A stretch of DNA of 64,000 nt from Warburgia ugandensis (Eukaryota > Streptophyta > Magnoliopsida > Canellales > Canellaceae). The notes under the pieces were generated by a model that ran no database searches, had not been told where the DNA came from, and saw only the letters and a program-made list of their open reading frames with translations. Location of the stretch: positions 56,393,880-56,457,879 of the forward strand of contig CP141132.1 of the NCBI GenBank assembly GCA_035236585.1, read 5' to 3'. A program made the position numbers and the translations under genes. Of this stretch, positions 4,859 to 56,780 are shown piece after piece. Positions within the stretch are counted from its first letter, which is position 1; every line of letters starts with the position of its first letter.

Positions 4859-4922
<64 letters not shown>

Positions 4923-13208: not shown

Positions 13209-13301
13209 CTAGAGATATTTTCGTGAAAGAGCACGGACTTTTGTGTCAAAATGTGATGATGTAATACGAGACCCTGGCAAGTATAGGGGGTTTAGAAGGA
13301 T
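13209..13301 (-). CDS. TRAPPC2: TRAPPC2 exon 5 (last coding exon)
   Basis: Encodes the conserved C-terminus [20 protein letters not shown] then [10 protein letters not shown] and a TAG stop. The acceptor GGCTTGGGCAG|ATC is canonical. The 3'UTR should run into 13208..about 13000; I see no clear AATAAA there. Confidence 0.92.
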   Translation of the reverse strand: MLLNPLYLPGSRITSSHFDTKVRALSRKYL

Positions 13302-16300
13302 CTGCCCAAGCCACAAAATAAGCAATAACCAAATAAGTGATAGAGAATAATCATATAAGTGACAGAAGATGATCGAACAAATCAATAAAGATTTAGAAAA
13401 ATGCAAATGCAATAGGAATGTACTATTCGTGGAGTAGATTTCTTTTCTTTTTCCCTTACAAACCAACCCATGAACTCCTCGAACCTAAAAGCTTTTATAA
13501 TTCTAACTGTGACTTCACATTTTCCAGAGTCATAGATAGTAGTTGATGAATTCTCTTCAAGTTGCATTCAGGATACTCCGATGAAGACCCTCATTGAGAT
13601 TTTGCATTAGGTCTCATTCAAGTGAAAGAAAAAGCTAAGGAGAAGAAAGCTTTCTATTTCTCCTTCATAACGCCATTCCAGGAATCAACTTTATCAAGGT
13701 ACTAGAGCAGGTTAGCTCTGCAATCCATTCATATATTCGAGAATTTGTAGTTATAAGAACCATACAACCATTGATATGGTTATCATGATTCGCATTCATC
13801 AACCTCTTCGCATGGTCCCCTTGCAGTTACCTCTCTGCAGGGTGCCCTTGCCAACTGCAAATGGTCCTCCTCCCATGCCTCAAGCTTTCTCTTGTAATTC
13901 CTTTATGTAGTGAAGTTGTTGATCCCACTTACATCTAATTGTCATCTTAGCAAGCATGGTAAACTCGCAATCTCATTTCATACAACTCATTCATTTATTT
14001 GGGGCCATTTTCCATCATATACTTTTCCGGCCATCATTTTTGTATGATTCTCAGCTTTCCTATGTCTTCAATCTATATCTTGGTGAGAAAACATTAGTGG
14101 GTGAATTTTTTATCCGCAATGTGGTTGAGGTGTTCGGGATATACATCTTAGCCTTTCAAAGAGTTCTATTGATCTCGGAGGCTGTTTCCTTTTTAGACTC
14201 TATGCAACATTTTTCGTACTCACATGCTCTTTCATTGAATTACAAGGCCAAGAGCATACAATATAACTGCCAATTTTCTCTTACATGGTGAAGGCATTTT
14301 ATACCATTAATTCATGTGATTATAGTGCTAAAGCTCTTTTGTGCTTGGAAATTTCAGATACACAGAAAATATTCCAAGCTATTCTTCTCTATGTTCTTGG
14401 GGTTGCTTGTAGTATATCCAAATTCCATCCCTTTACTTGAAAGTTCTTCTTGACAATGAAGATTACCAATAATATCTTTCATCTAGCAAAATTAATCTCC
14501 CACAATTCACCGTTTAACAGAGCTCTCTATTTAACTCAAGTGACAAGTGAAAGATTAAGGAGAAGCAACGTCATAATACTGTCTACCATTATATCCTAAA
14601 CAGTGTGTTAATTCTGCATAGAACAACTTTCATATCATTAGACCTGTAAAAGCAAAAGAAGTGTAGTAATGGTGGTGACTTCTAAACAAGGAATGCATAA
14701 ACCACAGATGCTAGAGGCTGTGCAAGACTGCCAAGACATTCCAGCAAAACTAGCAAACAGAAATATAGTAGGCTACAAGTAGGGTTAAAGAAACAGCAGA
14801 AATGAGATGGCTCAATAGGCACATACAACAATATGGGTAACAAAAGGATTGATCCAGTGATATGATTGATTATGAAGAGACATACATGCCTGTTGTTGAG
14901 GGTGCTGTAATAGGACTTGTTCCTTCATAGCTTTAGTTGGGTGGGCTTGTATGCTGGATGTGAAAAATGTCCTACATCCTCACAAGAAGAGGCATAAATG
15001 AAGCGCAAGTATATCAACCTGAGCTGCTCATCTCAGTAGATATTTTAACTCCGTAAGGTATGTTCACACAGAAAGTCCATTATGAATGCAGCCAACCTAT
15101 TCCTCAAACTGTTTTATTTTAGTCATGATGACAAAAGCAATGCCAAAGCTGGACGTACATTCAAGACTAACTCTCATACCCAGCAAGAACAAGGTTCCAT
15201 ATAGTCCTAAGGCCACATCAAATACGGCAGCCAGTCCCAACAGCAAAGCTGATGAAAATATAGCTACTGATAGTTGTTTTGATCCTCTAGCTAGGGAAAA
15301 AAAAAAAAAAAAAAAAATTATTCCACATTAATCTTGATGATGACAAGATTGAGGATGATTTGGATTCTGATCTAAATAGAGGACACAGATAGCATGCAGA
15401 ATGTTGTGAATACTGAGCAATGAGATGTTGACATAAGGAAGATGGTATTGATTTGGTGCAGACAATTCTAAAGAAGAGAATGAAATGTTCACATGGACAG
15501 CTCTGAACAAAAGGAAAATTAAAGGGCAGCCCCAGTGCACAAAGCTCCCGCATACATGGGATCCAGGGAAGGGGCGGACCACAAGGGTCTGTAGTATGCA
15601 GCCTTGCCTTGCCTTTATGCAAGAAGCTGTTTCCACATCTTGAACCTGTGACCTCAAGGTCACACAACAACAACTTTACCGTTGCGCCAAGGCTCCTCTT
15701 CAACAAAAGGAAAATTAATGATCAAAATATGAAGGCATTACTATGAAGCAAAAGAAGGATGACACCAAAGCCAAGACTTCTAGTCTAGGCCTCCATCACA
15801 TCAAAAGTTTATGCAGCTAGAACTGGCTCCACGAAGAAGAAGAATGAAGATTTGAGTATTACTTAGATGTTTGGATGTGAGCTATACTCCGTGAGGAGCC
15901 ACCTAGACCTATGGCCTTGCTTTGCCATTTGACCTCTCTTGCTTGTGAAGTGCTCCTCTCAATTGTCACTGCCTGACCTCCCTTACTACCAGGTAGCACT
16001 TAGTGTGGTCAGCACCAATCGTGTTAGACAATGACGCTTAAACTAATTCACATTGATTCATCCTGCTATGCCCCGGGCCTTTTGCTCTTCTAACATAAAG
16101 GTGGTTGACCATTCGTCAAGGCCTAAGAATCCACTGGACATCTTAGCAGCAGGATTGGATACCCACATCCAATTAAAGTTTCATTATAGTGTCCCCTTAA
16201 CATAAAGGAGAGCCGTTTCTACGTAGGTCACTTCACGGAAGACATTGCTTAGGATCAACGAGTCACATGACAGGTGCATGATTGACTTTGCACACTCCAT

Positions 16301-19300
16301 CCTCCTGCCTCTCACCTCTCACCTGTCAGCTTGGCAGACAAGCTACCTCAACCTGCCTTAAGCTTCGATTCATTATGCTCAGCGGCTCCCACAAGCTCTA
16401 AAATTTCTTGCTGCCAAAACTCTGCCAGGAAAGCACTACTTTACATTTGATACTATGAGCCTAGAGAACAAAATGTGTACTCCACTTTCGGACCTTGCAA
16501 AAAGAGAATGTGTTTTTTCCTCTTAGTTTCTCTCTCATTCATGAAGCGAAGAAAGCGGACTTTGCTCAGATACTGCTATCCTTGAGAAACCAAAAGAGCT
16601 ACTGAAGGAAAGGGATGCAGTCTCTCCCTTGGCCTTCAGAGAGAGAGGAAAAAGAAGAAAACATCCTTCACACAAATTTTTATCATTAGGTGGATAGCAG
16701 CATTGACTCTGTCAACTAGTAATTAGCTTTCCCCCTTTGTGTCTTGATTAGGACCCTAGCTTTATTGCGAGCCAAAAACCTCCCTTCTCAGTTAGAAAGT
16801 AGTTTAGTTTACTTGCTGGGCAGGAGGGCTTTGCAATTTTGCGGGCCAAACCCTCTCCTCTAGCAAACCATCGATGCACACGTGTAATCGCATGAGCAGC
16901 CTCAAACCTGTGACCTACTGCAAGAGAGGCCCCTTCTCTCACCACCGCGCTATCCATCCTCTACAGCAGAAATTGCTCACTGACAACAAAGCCATCTTTC
17001 AAACCCCTTTCAAGATAATAAATTGAATGCCTCATTAAAATTTATGCCAGTATGGCAAATAGGAAATTGCTGATTGGCAACAAAGATGAACTCTTGCTTC
17101 AAGAAACCTCACCAATCTCCAAGCTGCATGTAGATCATTTCCCACTTGATAACATCCTCACAATGAGAGGCTTACGTTAGCAAGGAAAAAAGAAAGTTGT
17201 ATGGAAGTAGAGAAAAAGACATAGAAGTGGTAAAAATTAGCAATGAAGCTAGAAACGTGAAAAAGCTTACCAAAAACAGAGGGTGAAAGGAAGAAAGAGG
17301 AGGTTATAGGCAAAGCAGTGTTTGGGGAAGGGATCTGTGGATGCAAGAAGAACAAAATTATTTACAGCAAAGAAAATATAAATACCTTCTACAATTATAT
17401 AGGTGAATACATACATAGATATTGCATAGACAATTACATATACATAGAAAAAGCTGGTAGTTACTAGACCAGAAAGTTCAGTAGGATGGCCAAAGGTACA
17501 AGTGCAGTTTCGTAACTCAAAATCATTCATCTTTTGAGCCATACCTTCTTAGATAGGCCATGCTGCAAAAATTCACTCTACTAGCTGTTCCGACATATGA
17601 ATTGGACAACTAAGTTTTTCCAAAAAAGAAATAGTGTCAAGAGCTTCAGAATGTAAATGGTTTGTTTGGACTTTTTAATGCATGAGAATTTCAAGCATGG
17701 ATTAAAGAAGATGGGGCCAAAAAGATGAATGGTTTTGATTGCTGAAACTTGGGCCCAATTTGTACTTCAAACTACTCAACTAAACTTTTACATTTTGGTT
17801 GGGCAACCACAGAAAATTTCTCATGTACACCGATTTTGTACAGAAATATCATGTCTCCTAAAAGTCTTGGCATAACCAAATCATTTATCACATACATAAA
17901 AACATGGTTTCATAACTCCAACACCATAACCTCTTTTTTTCTTTGTTCTGGGTTAGTAAGAGGGATTTTTTACTCATCCCTAACTATAATATACATAAAG
18001 CAGAGACATGAACATTACACCCTGAACAATTCTCTATCCCTACCATCTTCAATTCTACATACTAAATCATGGATAATGGTAGAAAATTTGATATTTATGG
18101 TTTTGAATACGTAACCACATCTTAATAAAAAATACATAGCTCAATTGAATTAGTTGAGTCACCTTCCAGTAGATGAATAAATGCCAGGGTCTTCTTTATT
18201 TCTGTTAGGTGCTGAATGTTAAGCCTTTCGACACATTGGTAGGCCTAGACAAATCGTTTGAAGTTTCAGAATGAGGATTTCATGCTTGGGACATTTAGTA
18301 AGAAAGCAGAAATGAAATCTCCGGCCTGAACTTCTGAGCAACCAAAGATCCAACAATAGACATGAGAAATCCTAATCAGGCCCAGGTGAGGTTGGATCCA
18401 ATTGCAAAACAGACTCTTAGTAGAAATGAGGATAAAAAGGCCACCAAATCTGTTGATAATGAGGTGATGTTAAGATCAATAGCTATCTCTTGTAATTGAA
18501 TATGTCTGAGCTTAACAAAGATTTCTTCAAGATTCTCGCTGAGAAAGAATCTTTTTCGAGTGATTTTCCCCCAAAAAACTCAGCTATTTCTTTATGGCCA
18601 ATGTGATGAAGAGAACCAGCAAAGGAAAGCTTTACAGCAGTAAAAATGTGATCAGAGCTTTGAAAGTTTTCAGGGATCTTAGATGTCTTTGTGAAACACC
18701 ACATTATACTCCATATCTAGAGTATGAATATCAATGTCCTTTGGAGAAGATGAGAACAGCTTCCATCTTGAGTTCACATTCATACCAAACTGGATGAGCT
18801 GGTCTTCAGAATAACAGACTATGATTTGAATGAATGGTGAAGGACGTATCCCCTTAAATCAAACATGATTATACAAGTCAATTCTTAGATGCTTTCTCTA
18901 ATAGAATCTCAAGAAGATGAAAAGAAGCTTGGCTTCTGTACAACCTTATTTTTTCAACTTTCATAGGAGGAGAAAGCCTAGAAAGGAAGCCTTGGCACAA
19001 TGGTAGATTTTTTGACGTGTGACCCAGAGTTCATGGGGTCAAGGCATGAAAACAGCCTCTTGCAAAATGCAAGGTAAGGCTACATACTATAGAACCTTTG
19101 TGGTCCACTCCTTCCCCGAACTCTACATATGCAGGAGCTTCGTGCACCGGGCTGCCCCTTTTTTATATAGGAGGAGAAAGCCTCCTCGATAGTAGATTGC
19201 AGATCATCTAAAGATGAAGAGAAAGAAAAGTTTCATATTCCAGCTCCCAAGTTGAAAACATCCTTGATTTGCATGATGCAGAATTTGTAAATTACTTCAT

Positions 19301-22300
19301 TAGAGGCCTTTTTGAATGCCACAAGTCATTCCAAAAATTGATGCTGACCCCATCCTTGATGCTGTACAGAATAACAGGTAATGCTTCTAACCTCATTTAG
19401 AATACTGTGCATGCCCAAGACAATTCAGATATTCAAGCCCTATATGGTTCTTATCTTACATACTTGCACTGGCCAATTGAGAAGCAATTCTCTATTGGAG
19501 ATAAAACACAACGGACTTGTTCTGAGGACTGCTTACAGACTTGTCATGAGGGCTGCTTCATTCCAATTCTCAATAGATCCAATGCCAGGGCACCTTCCAA
19601 CTTTGGTCTGTGTAGTAAGTCCAGATAACAAGGTGGATTCCTTTTTCTTCATTTCAGATCCATACTTCGAGGAAATTCATAAAAGGTTTTTCCACTTTAA
19701 GGATCACAAATTTCATACTATAACACCAGGTACAAATAGAAAAAATTTGATGAGCTGTAACCAACCTACTTGAGAAAGCAATGAAGATTTCCAACCTGCA
19801 ATACAGCTTTCAATTTTCTTAATCAAGAGCTGGCAGTTGAATTCCTTAATCTTGAGGCAGAGGAGATTTCCCTCCATCGTACAGCATGTCAAGAATGGGC
19901 AGAATTAATATCATGATTTATATTGGCGAAGAAGAGTGCACCTTTTTGCTCGGTGCACTTATTGAATTCAGCGAGCACTACAGGACATCCTGCAGCACTA
20001 TGCTCATCTGCTGAGACATATGACATAAGGTCAACAGTGAAGAACAAGTGGAACATGGTATTGACCATTGCAGAAATTTGTTTTAATCTTTTTCTTCTAG
20101 CAACGACCGCCTCCAATTTTAATGGATAATATCTCCTTTACAATACACAAAAGATAGGCAAGAGGGGCCACCCTTGGTGGATTTCTTTTGGTATTGAAGA
20201 AAAACCCTGAGGTGTTCCAATGATGAGGACAGAAAAACAAGCAGTATCTATGCAAAGAAAACAGGTATCATTGAAGTTTTGAAGCTTCATGAACTAGAGA
20301 AGTGAAAGGGGGCATCTCACGTTTTTTCTTTCCTTGTGATTTATCTTATAGTTTAGTTTTTTTTTTTTTTTTTTAAACTGAGGGTATTGGATTTATTATT
20401 GTGTTGTGACTTGAGTAGGGGCAATGTTGTCTTTTCTTCTAGATTAGGGTTGGAAGTCCCTTACTTAATATCTTTTCTTCTTCTTTATAATTAGTTTTTG
20501 ATAAATAACCAATAGAAACTACTTTAGACTTGGTGGATTCCTTGTCAAGTTTTCTTCCCGTGGGCGTGAAGACGCGTTCAGTACAAGGTCGAGGTAATAC
20601 CATTTCATCACTATCTATCATTCAGTAGTTTTCCACTATCTTTTATTAGATCGTTTATGTGCTGTGTTTGGTTACATGGCTGTTTTTTTTTTTTTTTTAA
20701 TTCTTAATCATCAACTAGCGCCAAATTCCCAAAACCCTACATCCGAAGCTTAATCGGGATGTTCACCAATCAGAGGGACGATCTGAATTAAAACATCAAT
20801 CTTACCTTAATCATTACAAATATGAAACAATTTGCAGATCCTGTAATTCATTGTAGGCAATTCATGCTTATTAAGGCTGTTTTTTTGCATGTTAATAGTG
20901 CTAGTGGTAGTTTAATTTATGTTTTCATTTTTAAATTGATTTTTAATCTGGTCTTAGCGTATAGATTAGGCCATTTTGCATATTGAAGGCTTCTTATTTA
21001 TGTACAATTTCATCCAAAAGAAATTTTTCTTAACAACCTTTATTAGTCCATGCTTTTATGTTTACCTCAAAAACTCTATTATTGCACTCTTCTTTGAAGG
21101 AATGAAGTACCAGGATTATCAATTTCTAAAAAGTTCCTGCACATTGCATTCAATTCCTTTGACAATTGATTTTGCCATCGTTTTGAAGTCAAGAACGAGA
21201 GAACACATTCAATTTCTTTGAATTCAAAGAAAAACGAATCAAGAGATGATTATTAAATTTCTCATTCAGATAATACATCCCACACCAATGCATTATTAAT
21301 GTAGCAAATGATCTCTAATTAATGCACAAGGATGACCACAGTTAGGTTGAGGACACCCATGACCCAGCTTTCATCTAGCAACTAAAAATACAGCTATTTA
21401 AGAACAAAATATCCTAGGAATTTACAACCAGATCCATCAATAGATCAAACATATGTGCAATCTAATTACAAAAAGAGGTGCACAAGGTGTCTACCTCACC
21501 ATCCCAAAGGTTCTAATGAGGTCTTCATACAACCTAGTTCCACCTTATGATAGTAGTTAACCAACCTTTTGATAACAAGAAAAGAAAAGAAAAGGGCAGC
21601 CTGGTGCATGAAGCTCCCCTGCTTGCTGGGTTCGGGGTATGGGCAGGCTACAAAGGTTCTATAGTATGCAGCCTTACCTTGCATTTTGCAAGATGATGTT
21701 TCCACGCCTTGAAACTGTGACCTCCAGGTCACATGACAACAACTGAACCATAATATGCTTAAACATAACCCAACTTCCAAGCCAAGGGTTACATCAGTTC
21801 ATGGATATGCCTCTACTAACACAAATGAAGCAGTTAAAGATAGTAAGACCAGAGGTTAATTACCCAAGTGACTCATAACAATATACGCTAGTAATCAAAG
21901 TTAGTTCAGAAGTTAGCTTGCTAGGACATTCACTTTGCTAGGATAGCTATGCTCTCAACCACTTTAAAATGAAATAATAGATATAGACAGATAAGGACAC
22001 ATCACCAGCAGAGCTCAGCACATTCAAGAATTACAATATAATAACATAAAGAAACTAGATATATCTTAGAGAATGCTATGTAATAAATAAATTTTGAGCT
22101 TTCTACAACACAAAATTATAATTATAAGTATTTGACAGAAACAAGCAAACGAATGATCATTAATTAAAGAGTGTATCATGTGTTTAAAACTTGATAGTTA
22201 TTTGTCCAATAACTGTTATTCTGTACCCATAAATGTTATTCCAGTATCATGATGTATTTGACACAAGTTGGTATCATATCATGTTGGGTATATAATATGT

Positions 22301-24337
22301 TGGATCTCCCGAAGTAACTGAGAATGGCAGGCTCATCCAAATACAAGACTGTAAGGAAAGTCATTTGAGACAGTTATAATTAGCATAAAGTTCTAAAGCC
22401 CAGATAAAAATCAATTAAAAGTGAAACAAGATTCCCACATATTCATGCGGTTCAGGAAGTATAGGCATTTTCAGCAATGACGAAAGCAGTTGACTTTTTT
22501 AACAGCCAAGATTAGCAATATGGCAAACTCTCATAATGCTACATAAATTGCAGAAAATCAACTTTCAGAAAATATGGGTAATAACTACTTTACCTTTATA
22601 TAGAGCTCATGGACTTCTTGGAAAAAGCTCTTTATCCCATCTTCATTGCGGGAGTCATGAAGAAGCATCAATCGAGTTTGTATGATAAAGACCAGTTAAA
22701 GAAAACAATATAAAAGGGCAGCCCGGTGCACGAAGCTCCCGCCTAAGTGGGGTCCAGGAGGGGCAGACCACAAGGGTCTATAGTATTACAAGTTTATCAT
22801 GCACCATAAATAATATTACAAGTTTTATGATCAATACATAAAAAATTCCACAGATAATAACATATAGTTAACTAGAAAAGCAAATGGTGATATTGTGATA
22901 GTGCATCCATGCGCACTGACATGGCGCGGATATGGGTGTCTGAACTGTATTTCTTTAAAAACCATACATAGGGACATGGGAAATCAATATTGCAAAAGGC
23001 TAAAGCAAGGGCAACTGAGTGCACGAAGCTCCCGCGTTTTAGGGTTTGGGGAAGGGGTAGACCATAAAGGGCCTATAGTACACAACCTTACCTTGCATTT
23101 TGCAAGAAGCTATTTCCACATCTCGAACCTATGACCTCTAAGTCATACAGCAACAACTCAACCATTGTGCCAAGGCTCCCCTTCTATCGCAGAAAAGCCA
23201 AATTAAACAAACCTAGCAAAAAGCCAAGTAAAATTGTAGCAGCTACATTGAAAGGGTCCAAAGTCCCCCATGAAAGGCTGTTTTCGAGTTGGATGCTTGT
23301 TAGTATGTTTGGAGTGTCCACACAAGTACCGACATGGCTGTCGTGTAGATTTGTGTCCGACATGGACAAAAGAGAGAAATAGAAGTATTTGACAAAATAT
23401 AAACATGAACTATCGGGGTTTCTTAAATACCAAGGTGTCGTGTAGATTTGTGTCGGACATGGACACAAGAGAGAAATAGAAGTATCTAACAAATCATAGA
23501 CATAAACCATGGGGGTTTCTTAAATATCAATCTAGAGTGTTGGGCAGTTAAGGAACATCATACTCATAGGATGAGTGTCGCAGAAATGAGGATGTTGAGA
23601 TGGATGAGTGGTAAGACAAGAAAGAATAGAATTAGAAATGAAAATATTAGAGGAAATTTAGGGATAGCACCAATAGGTAACAAGATGAGGGAGATTAGAC
23701 TTAGATGGTTTGGACATGTTCAAAGGAGACCAACAACGGCACCAGTTAGGAGTGAGGCAATACAAGTTGAAGGTTCTAAAAGGGCAAGGGGAAGGCCCAA
23801 AAGAACGTGGATAGAAGTGGTGAGGAAAGATTTAAAAACTTTAGGACTAAATGAAACCATGGTATTTAATAGAGTGGAATGGAGGAATAAGATTCATGTG
23901 GCCAACTAATTGGGATAAGGTCTTGATGATGATGATTGCTCAAGGGAAATGATATGATGGAACTTGCCATTACAATATAATTATAAAAGGTAATAATCAA
24001 TATAGGTAAAAACACTAAAAGAAAACATTTCATGATAGAGTAGCAGTAACATTTTTGTTCAACAGGTTCAAGCTGCCGCTTTCTAACCAAGTGGCATAAG
24101 AAGGTACGAAAACCCAACTGTTCTCATCATATTCAGCTTGATTTCCCCAACAAGTGAAATAAAACAAACAGAAAGGTTTACAAGGAATCAAAAAGCCATT
24201 TGGGGATGTTTGGACATGTGGAAACTCGATTTCTGGAAAGCTTTCTCCCCCAAAAAATCTTTCCTTGAATATTTTTTCCCTACTATTTTTTAGATTATTA
24301 AATTTCATAATTTCATTAATATTAGCATTTTTCCTTT

Positions 24338-24381
<44 letters not shown>

Positions 24382-30300: not shown

Positions 30301-33300
30301 ATAGACGTCCTCTCCATTTCCAACCAGGAGACTGTGTCTATTTGAAGCTCCAACCTTATTGTTTCAAATCCCTATCAGCAAAGTCCAATGAGAAACTACG
30401 ACGCCGTTATTATGGTCCTTATGTTGTCCTAGAAAAGATTGGACAAGTAGCTTATAAATTAGAGCTCCCACCACAGTCGAAAATCCATCCTGTTTTTCAT
30501 GTATCCCAACTTAAATCTGCCAATGAACCTACTATAAAGCCGCAACCCATACCACAGACCTTGATTGATGAGTTGGAAGTGAATGCATACCCCGCAGACA
30601 TCAAAGAGATTAGGCAGGCTACTAATTGACAATATGAAGTACTGATTCAGTGGGAAAATCGTCCAAACCATGACAACACATGGGAGCCACTGGAGGACAT
30701 TCTCAAGCAATTCCCTGACTTCTACCTGGAGGACAAGGTGCACCTGATAGGGGGGGTATTGTTACATCAACAAAACCTAAAGAAAAGAGATTTGACAGTT
30801 ATTACACAAGAAGAAGTAAAGAACAAAAATAAACAACAGACAGTTATATTGGTTTACCAGCTGTAGAGATAGTTACTTTGTTGGTTAAATCAAAAGGTTG
30901 TTACGAATGGAAGGAGGGGAGGACATAAGAAGAGAGGGAGAACAGAAAGAGGGGAGGAGGATTGAAGGATTGAGTGGAGGTTCTAGCTCCTTGAAAGCTA
31001 GAGAATTGTAATCATAGATCCTTGTATACAAAACAGTGTAATCATAGAATCTTGTATACAGCAGAACCTACAGAGTTCTGCATTCTTTCTTTCTGAGTGG
31101 AATTGAAATTCTGTATTCTAATCTTTTGGAATTTGAATTCGATTGAAGTTTCTATCGGTATACCTAGTATAAGATAACTAAGTTTCCCTTGAAAGCTTAG
31201 ACAAGGAATTCATAGACCCAAATACCCCCTCCATGCATTTATATCATCCTGCAGAGCTCCATTTAGATAGTAAGATATTCCAACAGAAGGAGTTCTCGTC
31301 TTAGTTTCTTCAAGTAAAATAAACAGAGAATATCCTGAATCACCAATAATTAAATCCATGTTTACATGCATAGGCTGGATATGACCTGCAGTAACATATA
31401 CGGACACCCACATGTCATTGAACCTATCCATTGACTTCAGGAACCTGCATTTGAAATATCACAGGAATGAATAAGTTGTAAGAGACGGAACAGGAAACTG
31501 GCAATAGTGGATCATGTCCCAATTTCTTCATGGCAATAAAGGTGTCAGAGCAAAAATGGTGATACAACTTACATAGCACTAGTAGTCCATGCAAGGTCCT
31601 GAACAATATCCAGGGCTGCGTGTAATATGAATTGGTGCTCATGAGCAGCTTCTTCTATCTATAGATGCAGGTATAAAGTCTTAATATAATCATATTGACC
31701 ACAGTCAACAAATTGATTCTAAAGGCAATGCACAAAATAAACCAAATAGAAGCAACTGAGAACCCTGAAACATTAGAATGTCCTGAGCATCAAATATTGT
31801 CAAAAATAAAATTTTAGAACATATTATACCACAAAAGTCATCAAATTTGAGAACTACACAACAAAAGCAGGTGCTCAACCAACCACATCAAAACTAATGT
31901 GAAATCAAAATTTCTGTAAGTGACATATAACTCATTACAAGATGTCATATCATATGATATCTTAAGGTTAGTTTTAATAAATATAATGGCATACAGATGA
32001 ATCAATTAAGCTACAACAAAAAGTTTGTTGAATGGACATCTCATGACTGCCCTATGCATCTAATTCATACCTTACATAGATTGAAACTAGGTTGATTAAC
32101 ATCGAAACAGCCTCCCACCTTTGAGGTTCTTACTGAAAGTCAACATAAATATCCAAACTCTAAATTAATATTTCAAACAGTTATAGACTACAAGTGCAAC
32201 AGCAACACCCTAATCCCACATCCCTCTCTCTCAAGTATCACATTTCCCTAGCCTCAAATGGCATCCTCAATTTCTCATTAAAATCTAACCCTCCTTTCTT
32301 ACAGATCTCTCTTTCTAGACAAGAAATTCAAAGGAAAAGATAATAACCAAAACTGGAAAGAATACCAGTGTAAGTGTTGGAGAGCTTTTCTCATATTCAT
32401 CTTATGAAGAATTAGAATACATATGGACTAATTCACAAGATTTTCCCAAAAAAGAAAAAAGAAAAAAGAAAAAAGATAACAACAAAATAAGAAGAAGACA
32501 AATATTTTACTATTAGTCCTTTTTCTTCAGAATACTAAATAAGCAGATTCATCATCATCATCAAGACCTTTTCCCAATTAGGGGTCGGCCACATGAATCT
32601 TATTCCTCCATTCCTCTCTATTAAGTACCATGGCTTCATTTAGTCCCAAAGTTTTTAAATCTTTTCTCACCACTTCTATCAACGTTCTTTTAGGCCTTCC
32701 CCTTGCCCTTTTAGAGCCTTCTACTTGCATTGCCTCTCTCCTTCTAACTAGAGCTGTTTATGGTCTCCTTTGGACATGTCCAAACCATCTAAGTCTAATC
32801 TCCCTCATCTTGTTACCTATTAGTGCTACCCCTAAGTTTTCTCTAATGTTTTCATTCTTAATTCTATCCTTTCTTGTCTTACCACTCATCCATCTCAACA
32901 TCCTCATTTATATGATTCTCATCCTATGAACATGATGCTCCTTAAGTGCTCAACACTGATCCATAGAGCATGACCGGCCTTATAGCCATCTTATAGAATT
33001 TTTCTTTTAGTTTGAGTGGCACCTGCCGATCACACAAAACTTTAGTTGCACATCTTCATTTGTTCCAACCTGCTTCGATTCTTTGGGTAACCTCCCTCTC
33101 AATCTCTCCACTATAATGAATCATTGAACCTAATTACCGAAAGTAGTCTTTTACGAGGACTTCTTGGTTATCAATCTTAATTGGTGTTCCACTCCTACTA
33201 CTCTTCATGCTAAAATTGCATGCCATACATTCTGTATTAGTTCGGCTTATTTTAAATCCTTTAGATTCTAATGCTTCTATCCATAACTCTAGCTTTATGT

Positions 33301-36300
33301 TTACGCCCTCCCTTATCTCATCAAATAAGACTATATCATCTACAAATAGCATGCACCATGGAATCTCCTTGTGGAGATGTTTTGTTAACTCATCCATAAC
33401 CAACGTGAAAAGGTATGGGCTCAATGCCAATCCTTGGTGCAATCCTACAATAACAGGAAAATCATTGGTCTCGCCACTAGTAGCCTTAACATTTGTTATT
33501 ACTCTCTCATATATATCTTTAATTATGTCTAAATATCCCCACGAAACCCCTTTCTCGCCCAGCACCCCCATATTAACTCTCTCTAAGGACTCTATCATAA
33601 GCTTTCTCTAAGTCGATAAAGACCATGTGGAGGTCATTCCTTCTCTCCCTATATTTCTCTATCAATTATATTAGTAAGAAAACAGCTTCCATGGTAGACC
33701 TCCCAGGTATGAAACCAAACAGGTTCTCTGATATACTTGTCTCATGTCGTAGCCTCTTCTCAATCACTCTTTCAAAATGTTTCATAGTGTGGCTCATAAG
33801 TTTGGTCTCTCGATAATTAGTGCAGCTCTATGTCTCCTTTATTCTTATAAATTGGTACAATAGACCTTTTCCTCCATTCATCCAGCATTTTCTTTGATTT
33901 TATAATCTTGTTAAACAACTTGGTCAACCAAACTACTCCAATATCTTCATATGCTTCCAAACCTCTATTGGTATACCATCGAGCCCCATGGCCTTTTCTT
34001 ATTTCATCTTTTTCAAGGCCTCTTTCACTTTAGGTATTCTAATTCTACATTCATATCTATAATGTCCAATGTTATTTAGGCTTACAATATTTTCAATCCT
34101 TATATTTTCAAAGCCATTGTCATTTAACAATTTTTGGAAGTAAGTTTCCCGGCTTTGTTTGATCTCGTCATCTTTGACTGGTACCCTTTGACCATCACTT
34201 CTAATGCACCTAACATGATCTAAGTCCTTACCCTTCTGTTCTCTAATTTTTGCAAGTTTAAACACATCTTTCTCACCTTCTTTTGTTCCTAGTCTATTAT
34301 AGAGGTCCTTTCTCACCTTCTTTTGTTCATAGTTTTCATTATATTTAGTCTTTTTCCATGCTTTAAAACACACCAGTTTTTCTTTAATAACTTTTTGCAC
34401 TGTTTCGCTCCACCACAATGTTTCCTTTACTAATTGCCTTTTACCTTTAAATATTCCTAAGATATCTTTTGTCACTTCCTTAATGGACTCAGCCATATTA
34501 ATCCACATAGTGTTTATTTCTATTTTATAGTTCCAATTTTCTTCTACCATCAACTTATTTGTAAATGAGGTTATTTTCTCTCCTTTTTAAGTTCCATCTC
34601 TTAGTTTTTGGATACCTATTAAGTTCATTTCCTTTCTTTCATCTTTTAATATAGATATCCATAACCATTAAGCTACGTTATGAGGTTAAACACTCACTGG
34701 GTATCACCTTACAATCCTTACACATTGATCTTTTAGTATTCCTAAGTAGAAAAAAGTCTATTTGGCTTTTATAAAGTCCACTTTTAAAGGTTATTAGGTG
34801 TTCATCCCTCTTCTTAAAGAATGTGTTTGCAAGAGCCAGGTTATATGACAAAGCAAAATCGAGGATAGTTTCCCCTATCTCATTTCATTCACCTATACCA
34901 TACTCTCCATGTATCCTATCATATCCTCCCTTTTCTTTTCCTACATGGTCATTTAAGTTTGCTCCTATAAATATCCCCTCAATGTTAGGAATTTCTTGCA
35001 TGACTCCATTTCTTTCCAAAACTATCTTAGCAGATTGTTCAAATTAAAATTCTACAAGTTAAACATTATATTAAATAAATAGAAATGCTAGGCCGAAGGT
35101 CCTACACAGAACTTCCCTACAAGCACTTCTCACTTTTTCCATGAAGGGGCCCACCTTTGAATGATCCCACCAGCTCATCTAATTGCTTTAGCCCTAGATA
35201 TCTAGTATTTCAAACAGCAAACAGACGGGATAAATCTAGCATCTGAAAAAGTAGCTTTTCATCATCAGTAATAAACAATTATGAAATTTATATAAACAAC
35301 AGTCTAAATGCAAGTCCCAAACAAATGGATTTTAGAATGCTAAGCTCATGCAGCCATTGTGAATTTTTGTTTATGAGATATTCAAAGGATGGCCTTTTCA
35401 TGAAAAAATGAGGGCGCTTCCAAGGACGTGCTTTATAAAACCTTTGGCCTAGCATACCTCTTAAATAAAAACATGAAAAAAAACCTTCTGTAAATATTTT
35501 TCACTACTTTTTTATCTATCCAATAACAACAAAAGAAAAGAAAAGAAAATTCCAAATCATATATAAAAGAGAATTAGCAAGACTGAAAATACAAAAGAAA
35601 AATAAGCACGCTTTGCTATATGTATCCTTTGTGTTCTCCTACTTTTTGCGTTATAGGAAAAAAAAGACGCCATAAATTTTAAAACTAACCATCGAAAGTA
35701 AAAAGAAAAAAGAGGCAGCCTGGTGCACGAAGCTCCTGCGTATGTAGGGTCAGGGGAAGGGGCGGACCACAGAAGGCCTATAGCACGTAGCCTTACCTTG
35801 CATTTTTGCAAGAGGCTGTTTCACACCTCAAACCTATGACCTCCAGGTCACACAACCACAAACTGAATTCCACATAAATACTTGTACTTTATTGGATCTT
35901 TTGAAACTAAAACTTTAAGACTTTGAAAGGAAAAATTCCTAGTTTTCAATATATTTCCTAGCCTTCCTTTGAAACATAAAACTAAACTGAAATGGATGCA
36001 AAATAAACTATGGTTCAGCAAAAAAGAGGAAAGAGAAGGACCAGAAAAGGAAACAACAATTCAAAATTAGGAAAATAAGTAAAATGCAGCCCCGGTGCAT
36101 GTAGCTCTCGCATATGTGTGATGTGGGGGAGGGGCAGACCACAAGGGTCTATAATATGAAGCTTTACCTTGCATTTTTGCAAGAGGCAGTTTCCACGACT
36201 TGAATCCATGACGTCAAGGTCACATGACAACAACTTTACTATTGTGCCAAGGCTCCCATTCTAGAGTTTAAAAAATAAGCATTGTCTGAAAACTAGCCAA

Positions 36301-39300
36301 GTCACTTAATGACTTATCTAGAAAGATTCAGTTTTACCATGCCCAAAGGTTTTTCCCTGGTACAAGTTTGTCTTGGAGCATCCAAGTAAATAAAACTTGA
36401 CCAGATCGATCATTGATTAGTACAAACTGATTTGGTTATGCATTGAGCAAGTTCTAGTCAGGTCTTGAATGTCAAGAGACTAGAAGAAACCTATGCATGG
36501 GTGACTATAATCTATAGGAAAGTGATCCCACAAAAGAAATCGATAAGGTGGACATTTCCTAACTGAAACCTTAAAAGAATGCACAAAGAAACCTAGAAAA
36601 GCCCTCAAGGTGTTGATCCTTTCATTAGAAATCAATAATCACGTTTTAACCCTAATTATGATATTTAAACGAGAAAACATAAACAAAAGACTAAAATTCC
36701 CCTACTTCAGACACTTATGGAGGGCAGAAACATCAAAAACAAATTTGTAAAAGTAAAGTAAAAGGCTCCTAGCTGCCGTTGTCTTCAATTGTAATCATTC
36801 TTCCTAGCTTTGGGTCGATCTAAACTACCTAAACAGGCTTGGACATACTTCCCTACCTCAGTGCCCACCATTTGGAGAGAACTCGTCCTAGTTACCAAAG
36901 GAGATTCACAAGTAATGTCAATGAAGTAAGCTTTGTTAATCCAAAAATACACTTTCTCAATCTCTATAAGCTCTTCTGCAAATTTTTGCATAAGAAGACA
37001 GAAACACCCCTCTACTTGAAAAGTTCTAGCCCGGTCCTTGGTTCTCATAGGAGACAAGCTTTTCCTCATAGTAGTTGGCAATCCTTTGTTGATATCCATT
37101 TTGTATCCAAATGGCTAGATAGAGATTTGATGAGATGTTGCATTCAGCCCCACGTCGTGAACCACAACTTAAGGTACAAGATTCTTGTCATAACCACTGT
37201 CCACTGTAACCTTACATACCAGCTCCTTCACATTGCATTCAGTTTGGAACATTCTATAGCACTGTGAATATGGCAGATGTTGTTTGCTAGTGTTTAAACA
37301 TCTCTCTTCTACCCAAAAACTTCTCCCACCAGCTGTGGAAGCCCAATGTGCATCTCCTAGTACATCATCCTCCATGTTGCCATTGAAAACTTGTTTATTT
37401 TACTTCGACCCCAAAACATGAAATAATGATACAAGCATGTGGCCGTAGTAGCATGTTAGGCGTTAAATCTAAATCTTCAATCTGCATGTTTGGAGGAAAA
37501 AAGCTTCTAGCATTTTAGCAAATCCTTGTGGAAGGATGATGGAATCCCCAATTCTAGTTCTTTTGCCAAGACTAGGGCTCTCCCAAAGGGCATTTGTGTT
37601 TATATAAATGCTCACATCAAGCATCTATGTATAAGTGTGGTGGGAGACTAGGAGAAACTTTAGGAAAAAGTCTCCCCCACGATGTTAGCACTTCAACAAG
37701 CACCAATAGAAACAGTTTAATTTAAATACTTGATTTTCTCATAATCACTTTAGGTTTTCACATCAAATAACTTTCTGAAATACAAATATAGAAGACTTGA
37801 TGTGCCAATGTGAGCTGCATTACGACTTTCATTTAAAAAATCTAACAACCATCACTATCCAAATCATCTGCTACTGGTCGAGATGTTCATCTTCTTGCTG
37901 GACAACATCATTGTCTACTCTAATGCGTGGCTGCAAGCAATTACCAGAGATTCCCATAATTAATTATTTACCATGGGTTATGCATAAGTGCGAGGCTACT
38001 GATTCTGTGGCCGTACTTGTCGTGTTTGCTACACTTGCGCTACGCAGCTCTTTTGAAATGTAACTGAGAAATGTTCAGTATTGATTTGAAATATGCACTG
38101 AACTTTCCCCATAGTCACTTCTTTCCCTTTATTATGCGCCTCATCAAAACTTGAGAAATCCTTTGTATAAAACCTCCCAGCTGATTGCTCTCTTTGGGAA
38201 ACCAATTAAGTCTTCTTTTTTTTCTTTCTTTCTTTTTTCTGTGCTTTCATGAGCAATTGAATAGCTTCACTTACATTCCAAACTTTCTGCCTAGCTACTC
38301 TCTCCTGTAAACTAGTTTCGACCCTCCAATAAACCTGGCAAGCTTTTGTGATTCAGTCTTGAACACTTCATAGTAAGCAGAGAGCCTCAAAATCTCATTG
38401 GCATAATCTAAACACCTCGCATGCCTTGTAGACAATTCGAGTATCGTTAAAACAACTAGTTACAATCTCTATGAATGAATTGCATCCTTAACAATCTCTT
38501 CATGCGTGCAAGGATGCGATTGGTGTCTTCCCGAGACCGGTATTTGTCACTTGAAGTTGCTCTCACTATGTACATGCTCTTCCTTCGAGGTTGTACGTCA
38601 CCACTTGGCTTTCTAATGTACTAGGGTATTGCCATGATTGAAAAAACACTCAACTTTTACCAGCCAATCGAAGTAGTCCTTAAGGTGGAGTTGGCTGTTA
38701 ATAGATGGAAGGGAAGCATGCTGAGGGGCAATCATGTTTCTTGTTGTTGTACGCCTGGAACAAGTGTTGGATGAGTAGTCAGTTGATTCACAACACATGC
38801 TGGCTGAACCCTAATCTTTTACATATTCGCTATCTATGAAAGTACTCCACCACATGCCCATTGCAGGTAGGAATAATTCATTGATGCTGGATTTGCAGAT
38901 TCGTCATTGCCTCAGGCATCCAATGCACAGAAGTTTGCAAACCTTGCAGAGTTTCTAAAATACCTCCCAAAACAGGACTATTTTCTTGAAAACTAGCACC
39001 TTCTTGATGCATGTCAGAAGCCATCATAGAGATCTTCTTGTTCTAACACCATTTAATGCAGTCGGATATCGATCGAGCAAAGATGTTCTACTAAAATCTC
39101 AAAAAGGTGTACAAAGAAACCTTACAAAAGCCCTCCTTTCATTAGAAATAAATAATAATTACATTTTACAAACCTAATTGTGACAATTAAACATGACCAC
39201 TCCAAAAAAAAAAAAAATAGAACTTATGATATTCACTCATGAAAACATAATCAAAAGACTAAATACCCCTACTTAAGACCACTTATAGAGGGAATAAACA

Positions 39301-40133
39301 TGCAGAACTCTCTTATTTATAAAGAAAACTATAAAAGGAGCCTAGCTGCTGTTGTTCAGTTGTAATTCTTTTCCTCAGCTTTGGATCAATCTAAAAGTCT
39401 AACAGGCTTAGGCATGCCTCCCTATACCAGAAAAATAATGATAGTATCATCCAAATTGTGCGATTATTGGGAAAGGGCTCATCTATGGCAAAGTAAATAA
39501 TAAGAATGTTTCAAATTAACAAAAAGATGGGCCCTTCCGGTGAATATACCTCAAAATCCTAGAGGAGGGTGTGGGATTAGTCATAAAAGGGCGTGCAGAT
39601 GTCACTTCCCTTAATAAAACACAAGTGTCATCCGAATATTGTCCTTTTTGAACCATTATGCATGCATGAATTTTTCCAATATCAACTGCAATACTTTGAT
39701 GGTAAAGTTAAGTGGTTCACCTTCCATTGCCACAGCCCCTACCATAGTTATGTAGCTACAAGAAACATGTTTTTCTTTTCCATTTTTTGTTACTTGGCTC
39801 TTGGAGAATTTCATTTTCTAGTTTCCTTTCCCTTTCACTCATAGCATGAAGCTAGTTTATATAATGACAACAAAGGTAGGACACCACATATATATGTTCT
39901 AGGATAGTTCATACACCCTAAACTTTGGCAAAGAAACACCAATAGAGTTGTCAACATCACAAGGACATTAAGTTCCAATTGAATGTGACATCAAGCAAAG
40001 ATTCCAACATACATATGCAATAAAAGGGGTACCTAAACAGGAAGAAGCAGACCTTGATTGCAGAGCCCACTTCAGCTTCATATATAGGAATATCATTCCT
40101 ACTGACAATAATAAAACAAGCAGTATTGGCCAT
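13209..40133 (-). CDS. TRAPPC2: TRAPPC2/sedlin-like TRAPP complex subunit (five exons)
   Basis: Join of minus-strand exons 40133..40053, 31658..31573, 31444..31383, 22679..22594 and 13301..13209 (81+86+62+86+93 = 408 nt) gives 135 codons plus stop without any break. It starts [20 protein letters not shown], has the core [17 protein letters not shown], then [22 protein letters not shown], and ends [20 protein letters not shown]...RKYL. This is the sedlin/Trs20 family throughout its usual length of about 135-140 residues. Known role of the family: a longin-fold core subunit of the TRAPP complexes, which tether vesicles and activate Rab/Ypt GTPases between ER and Golgi. The start Met precedes the conserved N-terminus; an in-frame ATG 12 nt upstream (40145) is less likely. 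Introns 1, 3 and 4 are 8.4, 8.7 and 9.3 kb and full of transposons; intron 2 is 128 bp. The intact frame and splice sites argue for a working gene rather than a pseudogene. Expression is not shown by sequence. Confidence 0.9.
15523..15701 (-). mobile_element. Au-type SINE, full length
   Basis: Complete copy with A-box-like TTGGCGCAACGGTAAAG and B-box-like GGTTCAAGATG on the minus strand and a GGGCTGCCC-T end. A perfect 17-bp target duplication AACAAAAGGAAAATTAA lies at 15506..15522 and 15702..15718. Located in TRAPPC2 intron 4, sense to the gene. Confidence 0.95.
16743..16970 (-). mobile_element. tRNA-like SINE of a second family
   Basis: Minus strand begins GGATAGCGCGGTGGTGAGAG (A-box-like TAGCGCGGTGG) and has GGTCACAGGTTTGAGGC (B-box-like) about 35 bp on. 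These are RNA polymerase III promoter elements spaced as in a tRNA. The rest does not resemble the Au SINE. No target duplication found. Confidence 0.5.
18980..19166 (+). mobile_element. Au-type SINE, full length
   Basis: Plus-strand copy with GCCTTGGCACAATGGTAG (A box), GGGTCAAGGC (B box) and a GGGCTGCCCC-T tail. Perfect 17-bp target duplication ATAGGAGGAGAAAGCCT at 18963..18979 and 19167..19183. In intron 4, antisense to TRAPPC2. Confidence 0.95.
19260..20290 (-). pseudogene. L1-like LINE reverse transcriptase relic
   Basis: Minus-strand reading [20 protein letters not shown] (20050..19990) corresponds to the ISHLLFADDLM catalytic motif of plant L1 RT; the first catalytic Asp is lost (FTVD). 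Further on, [15 protein letters not shown] (about 19580) and [15 protein letters not shown] (about 19350) match the later L1 blocks, in L1 order. Many frameshifts. In TRAPPC2 intron 4. Confidence 0.65.
21594..21748 (-). mobile_element. Au-type SINE, 5'-truncated
   Basis: Same family; tail GGGCAGCC (complement) at 21594, B-box region TGGAGGTCACAGTTTC on the minus strand, head degraded. No clear target duplication. In intron 4. Confidence 0.88.
22594..22679 (-). CDS. TRAPPC2: TRAPPC2 exon 4
   Basis: Encodes (Q)[19 protein letters not shown] then QEVHELYIK, ending in phase 0 at AAG|GTAAAG. No AG acceptor lies near the required start. Instead the exon follows TTATCATAC, which fits an AC-ending U12 intron. 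A truncated SINE ends only about 30 bp upstream of the exon. Confidence 0.9.
22712..22786 (-). mobile_element. Au-type SINE 3' fragment beside a splice site
   Basis: Only the 3' third of the SINE remains, from the tail to TATAGACCC. In TRAPPC2 orientation it ends about 10 bp before the U12 branch site (22703..22694). Confidence 0.88.
23009..23181 (-). mobile_element. Au-type SINE, near full length
   Basis: Minus-strand copy with A-box-like TTGGCACAATGGTTGAG and B-box-like GGTTCGAGATG. More diverged in the tail (GTTGCCC for GCTGCCC). In intron 3. Confidence 0.9.
23340..23530 (+). repeat. 97-bp tandem duplication
   Basis: Two copies (from 23340 and 23437) of a unit beginning GTCGTGTAGATTTGTGTC and ending GGGGTTTCTTAAATA. 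In intron 3, directly before the RTE fragment. Confidence 0.85.
23535..23937 (+). mobile_element. 3' end fragment of an RTE LINE
   Basis: A 0.4-kb, strongly 5'-truncated copy carrying only the C-terminal coding part ([44 protein letters not shown]) and a GATGATGATGAT tail. This frame is still open over about 110 codons. It is antisense in TRAPPC2 intron 3. Confidence 0.9.
23938..25764. other. Unassigned part of intron 3
   Basis: AT-rich with the TA array at 24341; no coding motif seen between the RTE fragment and the gypsy 5' LTR. Confidence 0.5.
24341..24377 (+). repeat. (TA)n microsatellite
   Basis: About 18 TA units in intron 3. Confidence 0.93.
25765..26163 (+). repeat. 5' LTR of the gypsy element
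   Basis: About 399 bp. Begins (T)TGTTACATCAAC and ends TTTCTATCA. Repeated at 30759..31157. Confidence 0.93.
26165..26182 (+). other. Primer binding site, initiator Met tRNA type
   Basis: TGGTATTAGAGCCGGTTC starts one base after the 5' LTR. It matches the usual plant TGGTATCAGAGC primer site with one change. Confidence 0.85.
26193..27305 (+). CDS. gag polyprotein of the gypsy element
   Basis: Open frame of 370 codons from ATG at 26193 (start [12 protein letters not shown]) to TGA. N-terminal part is a charged coiled-coil-like helix. The central retrotransposon gag domain is visible as [14 protein letters not shown], then [13 protein letters not shown]. Near the C-terminus lies a zinc-knuckle-like [15 protein letters not shown]. 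Role: structural shell protein that packages element RNA in the cytoplasm. Pol follows in a different frame (offset -1), overlapping by a few bases. In related elements gag and pol are usually one frame, so this may be an indel rather than programmed frameshifting. Confidence 0.9.
   Translation: MVRTKMERTESMEKEIEGVRGEIGDVREQLGRLQTNVGALGEYLVEIREWIKNKELPGKGTSSHRNPEMREPSENPKRSPFPSGPHYHQDWHGRRLDLPVFDSQEPYGWLCRAERYFQVNGIANSEKIPAPSIYLEGDALHWFLWAENHTPFRSWESFRSALLRRFRSSQSEDDYGALLGLKQSSSVHEYLWSFKLLSGHLGNLSDMVMRGAFLNGLREDIRTEIKIFRPTTLSGMMELAQKIEKKNRALDQIRASPVRNDGGPRTSGPFQAHSNSDQAKVSPQENDRERLSIDQTVGKRGNLRRLTEFELQHRRSQGLCYRCDKKYQPGHRCKNRLLQVLLLAGDDEDGMENFSFPPAEVEKPKEKTTS
27302..30755 (+). pseudogene. pol (protease-RT-RNase H-integrase-chromodomain), broken
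   Basis: Domains in order: protease [15 protein letters not shown] (about 27390); RT with [32 protein letters not shown] and catalytic FFDDILIYS (27970..28760); RNase H with [12 protein letters not shown] then [15 protein letters not shown]; integrase zinc finger H-H-C-C ending CDVCQRNK (29480..29630) and DDE core with [16 protein letters not shown] and SDRDRVF (29700..30020); tail with [16 protein letters not shown] and [10 protein letters not shown], which is chromodomain-like (30630..30750). In-frame stops lie at 27542, 28244, 28763, 28766, 29184, 29283, 29919, 29991, 30060, 30285 and 30627. A frameshift in RNase H lies between about 28925 and 28955. The frame changes from phase 2 to phase 0 there. 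Confidence 0.93.
30759..31157 (+). repeat. 3' LTR of the gypsy element
   Basis: Same length as the 5' LTR. Preceded by a seven-G purine run. Its last base is G where the 5' copy has A, so the canonical CA end is lost here. Confidence 0.93.
31383..31444 (-). CDS. TRAPPC2: TRAPPC2 exon 3
   Basis: Encodes (M)[20 protein letters not shown] plus the first base of the next codon. The acceptor is AAATGCAG|G. Its 3' edge does not end at a usual GT site. The next intron bases are ATATCC, as in a U12-type donor, and C joins AA of exon 4 to give a Gln codon. The exon lies 225 bp from the 3' LTR of the gypsy element in intron 3. Confidence 0.88.
31445..31572 (-). other. TRAPPC2 intron 2 (short)
   Basis: A 128-bp GT-AG intron, GTAAGT at the donor and ATGCAG at the acceptor. 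It is the only short intron of the gene and holds no recognisable repeat. Confidence 0.9.
31573..31658 (-). CDS. TRAPPC2: TRAPPC2 exon 2
   Basis: Encodes [20 protein letters not shown] then DLAWTTSA plus two bases of the next Met codon. The acceptor is CTATAG|ATA and the donor is a perfect GTAAGT. The last two bases (AT) join the first G of exon 3 to make ATG, so the phase agrees on both sides. Confidence 0.92.
32550..35028 (-). mobile_element. 5'-truncated RTE LINE
   Basis: About 2.48 kb of the same family as 43910..47181, starting from the (ATC)n tail. It carries the C-terminal region, RT with [15 protein letters not shown] and catalytic [10 protein letters not shown] (33134..33598), and ends within the endonuclease region. 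AGCAGATT occurs at both edges (32542..32549 and 35029..35036), a likely 8-bp target duplication. It is broken by frameshifts and sits in TRAPPC2 intron 1, same orientation as the gene. Confidence 0.88.
35712..35866 (-). mobile_element. Au-type SINE, 5'-truncated
   Basis: Minus-strand copy, tail at 35714, body GCAAGGTAAGGCTACG and TGACCTGGAGGTCATAGG visible. The A-box head is degraded. In intron 1. Confidence 0.88.
36085..36257 (-). mobile_element. Au-type SINE, near full length
   Basis: Minus-strand copy with TTGGCACAATAGTAAAG (A box) and GATTCAAGTCG (B box). In intron 1. Confidence 0.88.
36523..39429 (-). mobile_element. Degenerate Ty3/gypsy element with gag and protease only
   Basis: Direct repeats at about 36523..36860 and 39057..39429 share AGCCTAGCTGCTGTTG-like and CAGGCTTAGGCATG-like blocks and act as LTRs. 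On the minus strand the right-hand LTR is followed by TGGTGTTAGAACAAG, a mutated Met-tRNA primer site. Inside: a gag-like piece [18 protein letters not shown] (38613..38798) and a protease-like piece [13 protein letters not shown] (37169..37375). RT and integrase are absent. Flanks GAAAG/GAAAA could be a mutated 5-bp target duplication. In TRAPPC2 intron 1. Confidence 0.65.
40053..40133 (-). CDS. TRAPPC2: TRAPPC2 exon 1 (coding part)
   Basis: Encodes residues 1-27, [20 protein letters not shown] then EVGSAIK, ending in phase 0. The donor reads AAG|GTCTGC, a GT donor but a poor match to GTRAGT. The next GT donor, 20 nt further on, would shift the frame, so this one is preferred. Just upstream a TTACAG acceptor (exon edge near 40155) suggests the 5'UTR is itself spliced. 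Confidence 0.88.
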
Positions 40134-46843: not shown

Positions 46844-47032
46844 ACTTTTCACCGCACTGGTTCTCGATGCAGTCGCTTCGAGGGGACGCTCTAGCAGCCC
46901 TTGCCCATTTTTCACTACACCCGGGATCCGATGTAGCGCGTCGCTTCTGGGAGAACGCCCTAGCAACCCTTGCCTATTTTTCACCGCATCCGGGATCCGA
47001 TGCAACGTTGCCGCTTATGGGGAACGCCCTAG
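46844..47032 (-). repeat. Three tandem units in the RTE 5' region
   Basis: Three imperfect copies of a 57-68-bp unit (46844..46907, 46908..46975, 46976..47032). Each contains a TTTTCACYRCA start, a CCGGGATCCGATG-like core and an AACGCCCTAGC end. On the element strand they lie just upstream of the endonuclease start. Confidence 0.75.
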
Positions 47033-47089
47033 CTTGAGCGAATTTCAGATTTCGATTCATGTCATGTTGGGGTTGCCATAGTTTTAAAA

Positions 47090-47150
47090 GCTGAAGATGA
47101 TTTTCATTAAAATCATGAAAATCATTACAATCATTAAAATCATCTTCAGC
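47090..47150 (-). repeat. Inverted repeat (hairpin) in the RTE 5' leader
   Basis: Perfect 15-bp arms GCTGAAGATGATTTT (47090..47104) and its complement (47136..47150) enclose an AT-rich spacer of repeated ATCATT-like words. It lies about 30 bp inside the element's 5' end. Confidence 0.8.
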
Positions 47151-47196
47151 TTCACCCTTGCCGGCTGGCTACCTGACGCAAGTGCTAAGAAAAATT

Positions 47197-51385: not shown

Positions 51386-51453
<68 letters not shown>
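51386..51453 (+). repeat. (CT)n microsatellite
   Basis: About 34 CT units between the solitary MULE end and the helicase fragment. It creates spurious Ser/Leu-repeat open frames. Confidence 0.95.

Positions 51454-55664: not shown

Positions 55665-55668
<4 letters not shown>

Positions 55669-55729
<61 letters not shown>

Positions 55730-56687: not shown

Positions 56688-56780
<93 letters not shown>
56688..56780 (+). repeat. Compound (CT)n-(TA)n microsatellite
   Basis: About 25 CT units followed directly by about 22 TA units. Confidence 0.95.

Follow-up and report, generated by a model that had tools for sequence, protein, structure and literature searches.

AT-AC intron 3 and three introns of 8-9 kb in a TRAPPC2 gene of Warburgia ugandensis, one of three copies in the genome

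Introduction

The window considered here is a stretch of 64,000 nucleotides from Warburgia ugandensis (assembly GCA_035236585.1, contig CP141132.1, positions 56,393,880 to 56,457,879 of the forward strand). It very probably holds a true TRAPPC2 (sedlin/Trs20) gene, which carries an AT-AC intron and has been under purifying selection for most of its history; three copies were detected in the 1.12-Gb genome. An earlier note on this DNA had described a transposon-filled TRAPPC2 gene; it was right on what the gene is, how far it extends, how many exons it has and that its introns bear transposons, but it had overlooked the AT-AC junction. The expected product is a small longin-fold subunit of TRAPP tethering complexes. 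The pre-mRNA is most likely 27 kb long or longer; the major spliceosome would splice out its GT-AG introns (1, 2 and 4), and the minor spliceosome its AT-AC intron (3).

Exon Structure and Protein Identity

The gene consists of five minus-strand exons, colinear and in frame, which extend from 40133 to 13209 and join to 408 nt, encoding 135 amino acids and a stop codon (Table 1). All five were matched singly and in the correct order by tblastn, with E-values from 2e-7 to 3e-14. The joined protein is 91% identical over its full length to its best plant relative in the protein database (best 120 of 584 matches), and the Sedlin_N profile aligns to residues 9-133 from profile position 1 to 129 with 139 bits (cut-off 23.1) and E 1.3e-40. 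The ordered exon matches, the close relative and the profile score together argue for a gene and not a chance arrangement. In the PDB, TRAPPC2 chains are matched with E-values of 3e-37 to 5e-33 and a TRAPPC2L chain with 4e-8; by these matches, the protein is closer to TRAPPC2 than to TRAPPC2L. Like TRAPPC2/sedlin/Trs20 (a name that Arabidopsis AT1G80500 bears in PMC11907232), the protein has a full Sedlin_N domain, and its 135 residues are the length found in many plant relatives. The window copy differs in its three introns of 8-9 kb and in the unusual residues I28, W68, Q77 and S131.

Several statements of the earlier note are confirmed by these data. A full-length sedlin/Trs20 protein from five exons is borne out by the coordinates, the intact 135-codon frame and the Sedlin_N match, and the comparison of the joined protein with relatives, which had been proposed as a check, upholds the identity. 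The coding share is indeed 1.5% (408 of 26,925 bases), and three introns do exceed 8 kb. It is reasonable to describe the exons as invisible as ordinary open reading frames: among the eight places that the Sedlin_N profile gave in the entire genome there is no window exon, whereas a query with the protein itself gave all five.

The AT-AC Intron

U12-type introns are recognised through their donor and a branch site near the acceptor, and no polypyrimidine tract is needed. The consensus of the U12 donor is ATATCCTT. The junction of exons 3 and 4 in the window gene is AT-AC and not GT-AG: intron 3 starts with ATATCC, contains the branch motif TTTTCTTTAAC and ends with TTTTCTTTAACTGGTCTTTATCATAC. 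Within this motif, TTCTTTAAC at 22703-22695 has one mismatch to TTCCTTRAC and puts the branch A some 16 nt before the intron end; the paralogues described below have CCCTTGAC and CTCTTGAC as branch motifs. Either signal alone is unremarkable, since both occur close to shuffled expectation in the window: 42 times on the two strands for ATATCC (38.0 expected) and 27 times for the branch motif with at most one mismatch (24.6 expected). The chance of finding both at the required places has an order of magnitude of 5e-7 if the two are independent and the branch motif may take any of eight placements.

Around exons 3 and 4, 28 positions for the donor and 17 for the acceptor were enumerated, and among them no GT-AG or GC-AG pair is in frame. 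Two AT-AC pairs yield 135 residues, and only that with ATATCC combines a U12-type donor with intact conserved residues; the second pair was rejected, as it lacks such a donor and disrupts the conserved VTAG stretch. AT-AA ends, which PMC10639083 describes as the commonest unusual termini of minor introns in plants, would restore the usual H at codon 77 and were rejected by hand, as the donor would then start with ATCC and not ATATCC. On this reading, intron 3 would be removed by the minor spliceosome.

Table 1. Features of the window gene, its paralogues and the mobile elements in its introns.
Feature	Position	Strand	Description
TRAPPC2, window copy	13209..40133	-	introns 1/2/3/4: 8394/128/8703/9292 bp
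Exon 1	40053..40133	-	81 nt; start codon at 40133; donor of intron 1 AAG/GTCTGC
Exon 2	31573..31658	-	86 nt
Exon 3	31383..31444	-	62 nt; 3' end GGTC, then ATATCC donor
Exon 4	22594..22679	-	86 nt
Exon 5	13209..13301	-	93 nt, including stop codon
Intron 1	31659..40052	-	8,394 bp; GT-AG; identified repeat 38%
Intron 2	31445..31572	-	128 bp; GT-AG; without counterpart in human exon 4 (c.94-238)
Intron 3	22680..31382	-	8,703 bp; AT-AC, U12-type by motifs; identified repeat 72%; same termini in both paralogues
Intron 4	13302..22593	-	9,292 bp; GT-AG; identified repeat 6%
U12-type donor ATATCC	31377..31382	-	AG at +7/+8
Branch-site motif TTTTCTTTAAC	22695..22705	-	15-16 nt before AC end
Paralogue C8	C8:12776720-12771621		five exons, genome protein search; introns 1/2/3/4: 3802/114/232/544 bp
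Paralogue C7b	C7:69752676-69757472		five exons, genome protein search; introns 1/2/3/4: 3306/117/209/757 bp
Ty3-type retrotransposon	25763..31156	+	antisense, in intron 3; frames broken
Truncated SINE-like piece	22712..22786	-	about 6 nt from branch motif, about 32 nt from acceptor
LINE copy	32549..35022	-	in intron 1; reverse-transcriptase piece; relative at 43915-46430 outside the gene

Intron Positions Shared with Human TRAPPC2

Intron 4 of human TRAPPC2 follows c.238 and begins with A (c.238+1A>G), and variants at its donor are listed among the causes of spondyloepiphyseal dysplasia tarda (PMC7260818). The mutated TRAPPC2/SEDL donor is called U12-type or a minor-intron donor in passages of PMC8199999, PMC7644725 and PMC3584512, the last of which cites a paper on IVS4+1A>G. 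Codon 80 of the human gene starts at c.238, as p.H80R (c.239A>G) shows, and codon 77 of the window gene, which is split after its first base (phase 1), aligns to sedlin residue 80; thus the site, the phase and the A at +1 are common to both. The window intron differs from the human U12-type AT-AC intron in its 8,703 bp, in the retrotransposon it carries and in the AG at donor positions +7/+8.

The position of window intron 4 is exactly that of human c.324/325 (codon 109 starts at c.325). Intron 1 lies at most one residue from human c.93/94 in the same phase, in a region where the alignment is gapped. It is the three introns coinciding with human positions, or lying no more than one residue away, that now measure 8-9 kb; intron 2, which interrupts sequence corresponding to the single human exon 4 (c.94 to c.238), is the only one still short. 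U12 introns common to animals and plants are already known (PMC2426677). TRAPPC2 was not found as a plant U12 gene in literature searches or in the main text of that paper, its supplementary files being outside the search, and a list there may well contain it.

Database Models at the AT-AC Junction

The listed relatives are the best 120 of 584; 110 of them carry an organism name and are land plants as far as recognised, 10 are unnamed, and near-duplicates (several Malus rows, for example) mean that they are not independent. Judged by pattern, 54 are regular at the exon 3/4 junction and 66 are irregular. Almost half of the latter (31 of 66) read "GHI", and 30 of these read "GHIL", which is the translation of exonic GGTC running on into ATATCCT. 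Nineteen rows, a set that overlaps the GHI set, fit a loosely defined pattern of the branch type, for instance "FSLT....HTR", as a U12 branch site reads in translation; 23 irregular rows fit neither. Among the irregular models, 55 end in "HTR", and their H is preceded by I, L, T, V or A, residues that all have A-ending codons; this is consistent with an AC end, although the test is weak because most residues have such codons. The junction residue in the 54 regular models is H in 46, N in four, Q in three and R in one, and it is Q in the window. According to PMC5716242, ab initio prediction misses non-canonical introns. The AT-AC termini of intron 3 help to explain why gene finders so often produce wrong TRAPPC2 models, independently of repeats.

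Three Copies in One Genome

The genome protein search returned 17 matches, which comprise 15 exons at three loci and two weak matches at 37-38% identity, perhaps to TRAPPC2L. No fourth or intronless TRAPPC2 copy appeared in this search, in which all 17 candidates were scored. The earlier note had named another intact TRAPPC2 locus taking all expression as a point that would tell against its reading, and two other intact loci do exist. The best listed match of the C7b protein is 93% identical (best 120 of 572; database clustered at 90%).

All three copies share exon sizes of 81, 86, 62, 86 and 93 nt and the AT-AC intron 3. In the DNA, the window exons are 84-85% identical to those of the paralogues. 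A processed pseudogene is rejected as an explanation of the window copy, whose introns occupy the same sites as in the paralogues. In contrast to the exons, introns 1, 3 and 4 are shorter in C8 and C7b: relative to them, intron 1 of the window copy is about 2-fold, intron 4 12- to 17-fold and intron 3 about 40-fold longer. The growth is therefore specific to the window copy and not genome-wide. Repeat families common to both set aside, the window copy is homologous to C8 in the exons and in intron 2, and elsewhere for at most about 31 bases past the exons.

Both compact copies (L009 and L011 in the genome list) have an acceptor-like TTGCAG 20-30 nt before the ATG and may therefore have an intron within their 5' untranslated regions; the start of the window gene, too, may lie beyond 40133. 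Further Sedlin_N-type matches in the genome are L001, L004, L005, L006 and L008. A weak resemblance to the window protein (36% over 39 residues) is seen in L001, L004 and L005, perhaps TRAPPC2L, while among L001, L006 and L008 only L001 has any resemblance to it.

Repeats and Growth of the Introns

Intron 3 contains a Ty3-type long terminal repeat (LTR) retrotransposon in antisense orientation. Its LTRs (25763-26162 and 30757-31156) are 96.25% identical and are flanked by a likely target duplication, GTATA, judged by eye. Between them, Retrotrans_gag, RVT_1 (in two pieces), RT_RNaseH and Integrase_H2C2 score above cut-off in Ty3 order, and the integrase core (rve) scores below it; six of the ten window pieces scanned with Pfam matched, five in this element and one in the long interspersed element (LINE) of intron 1, and four had no match. 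The 400-bp LTR alignment has 15 differences, 13 of them transitions, three of these in CpG. This divergence corresponds to approximately 1.5 to 2.7 million years at assumed rates of 1.3e-8 and 0.7e-8 per site per year.

At the other end of intron 3 lies a truncated piece resembling a short interspersed element (SINE), which stops at about 22712, and homology to C8 starts at 22711. Its family, as aligned from 11 window pieces, has a tRNA-like GGGTTCAAGGC box and a T-rich tail, and may represent an Au-type SINE. Introns 1 and 3 have grown partly by taking in recognisable transposons. Intron 4 is the longest and yet only 6% of it is repeat in the within-window comparison. The repeat shares all come from this comparison, which transposons occurring once in the window escape. 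Of the self-repeats, 5,456 bp fall within the span of the gene and 6,639 bp beyond it, so that 45% of them lie in 42% of the window, and the claim that the introns hold most of the window's repeats fails on this count; it is recovered when the interior of the LTR element is added (10,050 of 16,689 bp, 60%).

The insertions came to within 226 nt of the U12 donor, at the edge of the Ty3-type element, and within about 32 nt of the acceptor, leaving donor, branch motif and acceptor unbroken. Such growth would be tolerated because the splice signals sit close to the exons, and recognition of U12 introns without a polypyrimidine tract fits an insertion so near the 3' end. According to PMC10639083, minor and major introns vary in length together across species, so that the size of intron 3, in a gene whose major introns are long too, is nothing odd in itself. 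Like the window gene, the rice IBM2-dependent genes treated in PMC7145194 are conserved and have long transposon-bearing introns. The same source states that more than 10% of rice genes carry intronic heterochromatin and that plant genes with heterochromatic transposon-bearing introns can need IBM2 for transcription; by analogy, the window gene might depend on it as well.

Selection on the Window Copy

The ratio of nonsynonymous to synonymous substitution rates (dN/dS) between the window copy and its paralogues is 0.067 (bootstrap 0.030-0.130; dS 0.89) and 0.074 (0.034-0.132; dS 0.78), and that between the two paralogues is 0.101 at dS 0.19. Values of about 0.07 indicate purifying selection on the window copy through most of its history. 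The protein deviates at two of 83 conserved columns, within the range of 0-4 seen in the 54 regular relatives, and its root-to-tip length is 0.362 against a median of 0.361, although its placement in the tree is poorly supported (0.275). Long-term relaxed selection is rejected on these grounds. There is no stop or frameshift, and all splice dinucleotides are kept, from which it seems likely that the gene is transcribed and working today. These selection measures average over the whole history and are blind to the last few million years, so that a loss within that time stays compatible with them.

Alternative Explanations

It may be asked whether the long introns are an assembly artefact that put repeats from elsewhere into a gene which is really compact, as repeat-rich sequence is easily misassembled. 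However, the window lies within an 82.8-Mb contig and contains no N, the two LTRs of the retrotransposon have diverged and are flanked by a likely target duplication, and the extent of exon divergence from the paralogues means that the exons are not displaced pieces of these; an artefact is therefore extremely improbable. It is nearly as hard to maintain that the major spliceosome removes intron 3 through some GT-AG pair and that AT-AC is a coincidence. Most introns are GT-AG and GT donors do occur near the end of exon 3, but the enumeration gave no such pair in frame, the GT-AG or GC-AG pairs present in the paralogues damage the junction and give 125, 138 or 149 residues, and the human gene has the same site, phase and A at +1, which makes this explanation very unlikely. 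Some AT-AC introns are spliced by the major spliceosome (PMC7072748), so that the termini alone do not fix the machinery.

A working window gene with a U12-type intron has several observations to contend with. The first six positions of the U12 donor fit the consensus, but the window donor ATATCCAG departs from it at +7/+8 (AG); T at +7 is implied by 30 of the 31 read-through database models, where the window has A. The intron 1 donor GTCTGC matches the major donor consensus poorly, the paralogues having GTATGA. Residue 28 is I in place of the K or R of all 120 listed relatives; residue 131 is S in place of the A of 119 and the T of one; W at residue 68 occurs in none of the 54 regular relatives; and residue 77 is the less common Q. 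The last is equivalent to the site of human p.H80R, which is listed as pathogenic in PMC7260818; Chaetomium TRAPPC2 also has Q there in the PDB comparison. In addition, the two compact intact copies could make the window copy dispensable. From these points it might be argued that the copy, functional for long, has been poorly transcribed or mis-spliced since the insertions and is now dying while the compact copies carry the function, the more so as two of the four unusual residues adjoin splice junctions. This account is rather unlikely: frame and splice dinucleotides are intact, dN/dS is low, no long branch is seen, conserved columns are nearly all kept, and the donors of the compact copies have drifted as well, +7/+8 being GA in C8 and TA in C7b (which departs at +8). 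The window copy is more likely functional than dying. The same drift, at +7/+8 in two copies and +8 in one, together with the roughly 40-fold growth of an ancient minor intron in a single copy, is the basis for supposing that this lineage has relaxed U12 donor recognition beyond ATATCC and that the long copy is a slowly spliced, regulated version and not redundant, which must be regarded as quite improbable.

Other Features of the Window

A second LINE lies outside the gene at 43915-47182; it is kin to that of intron 1, is approximately 85% identical to a LINE upstream of C7b, and includes in its region a 69-bp tandem repeat (46872-47033). On the minus strand, 51648-51902 holds a reading frame with a stretch resembling the Q-motif of DEAD-box helicases (LGFKEPTPIQRHAVPILL), the best structure being DDX52 with a weak E of 0.028. 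No other helicase motif was detected near it in a simple six-frame motif scan, and it is perhaps a lone exon or a fragment. Perfect arrays of dinucleotides, between 26 and 68 bp in length, are found at 304-396, 4862-4920, 51386-51453, 55668-55726 and 56688-56780, and some yield long spurious reading frames. The window gave no Rfam match at the gathering threshold and no gene in a tRNA scan.

Conclusions

None of the ingredients of this locus is new singly, as shared U12 introns (PMC2426677), transposon-bearing introns (PMC7145194) and missed non-canonical introns (PMC5716242) have each been described. The AT-AC intron and the two compact paralogues in the same genome make it more instructive than a transposon-filled gene alone. 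A practical fault to be mended is the irregularity at the AT-AC junction of more than half of the listed TRAPPC2 relatives. The three copies represent a natural experiment, in which the same exon sizes and the same minor intron, with intron 3 at 8,703, 232 and 209 bp, are found together in one nucleus.

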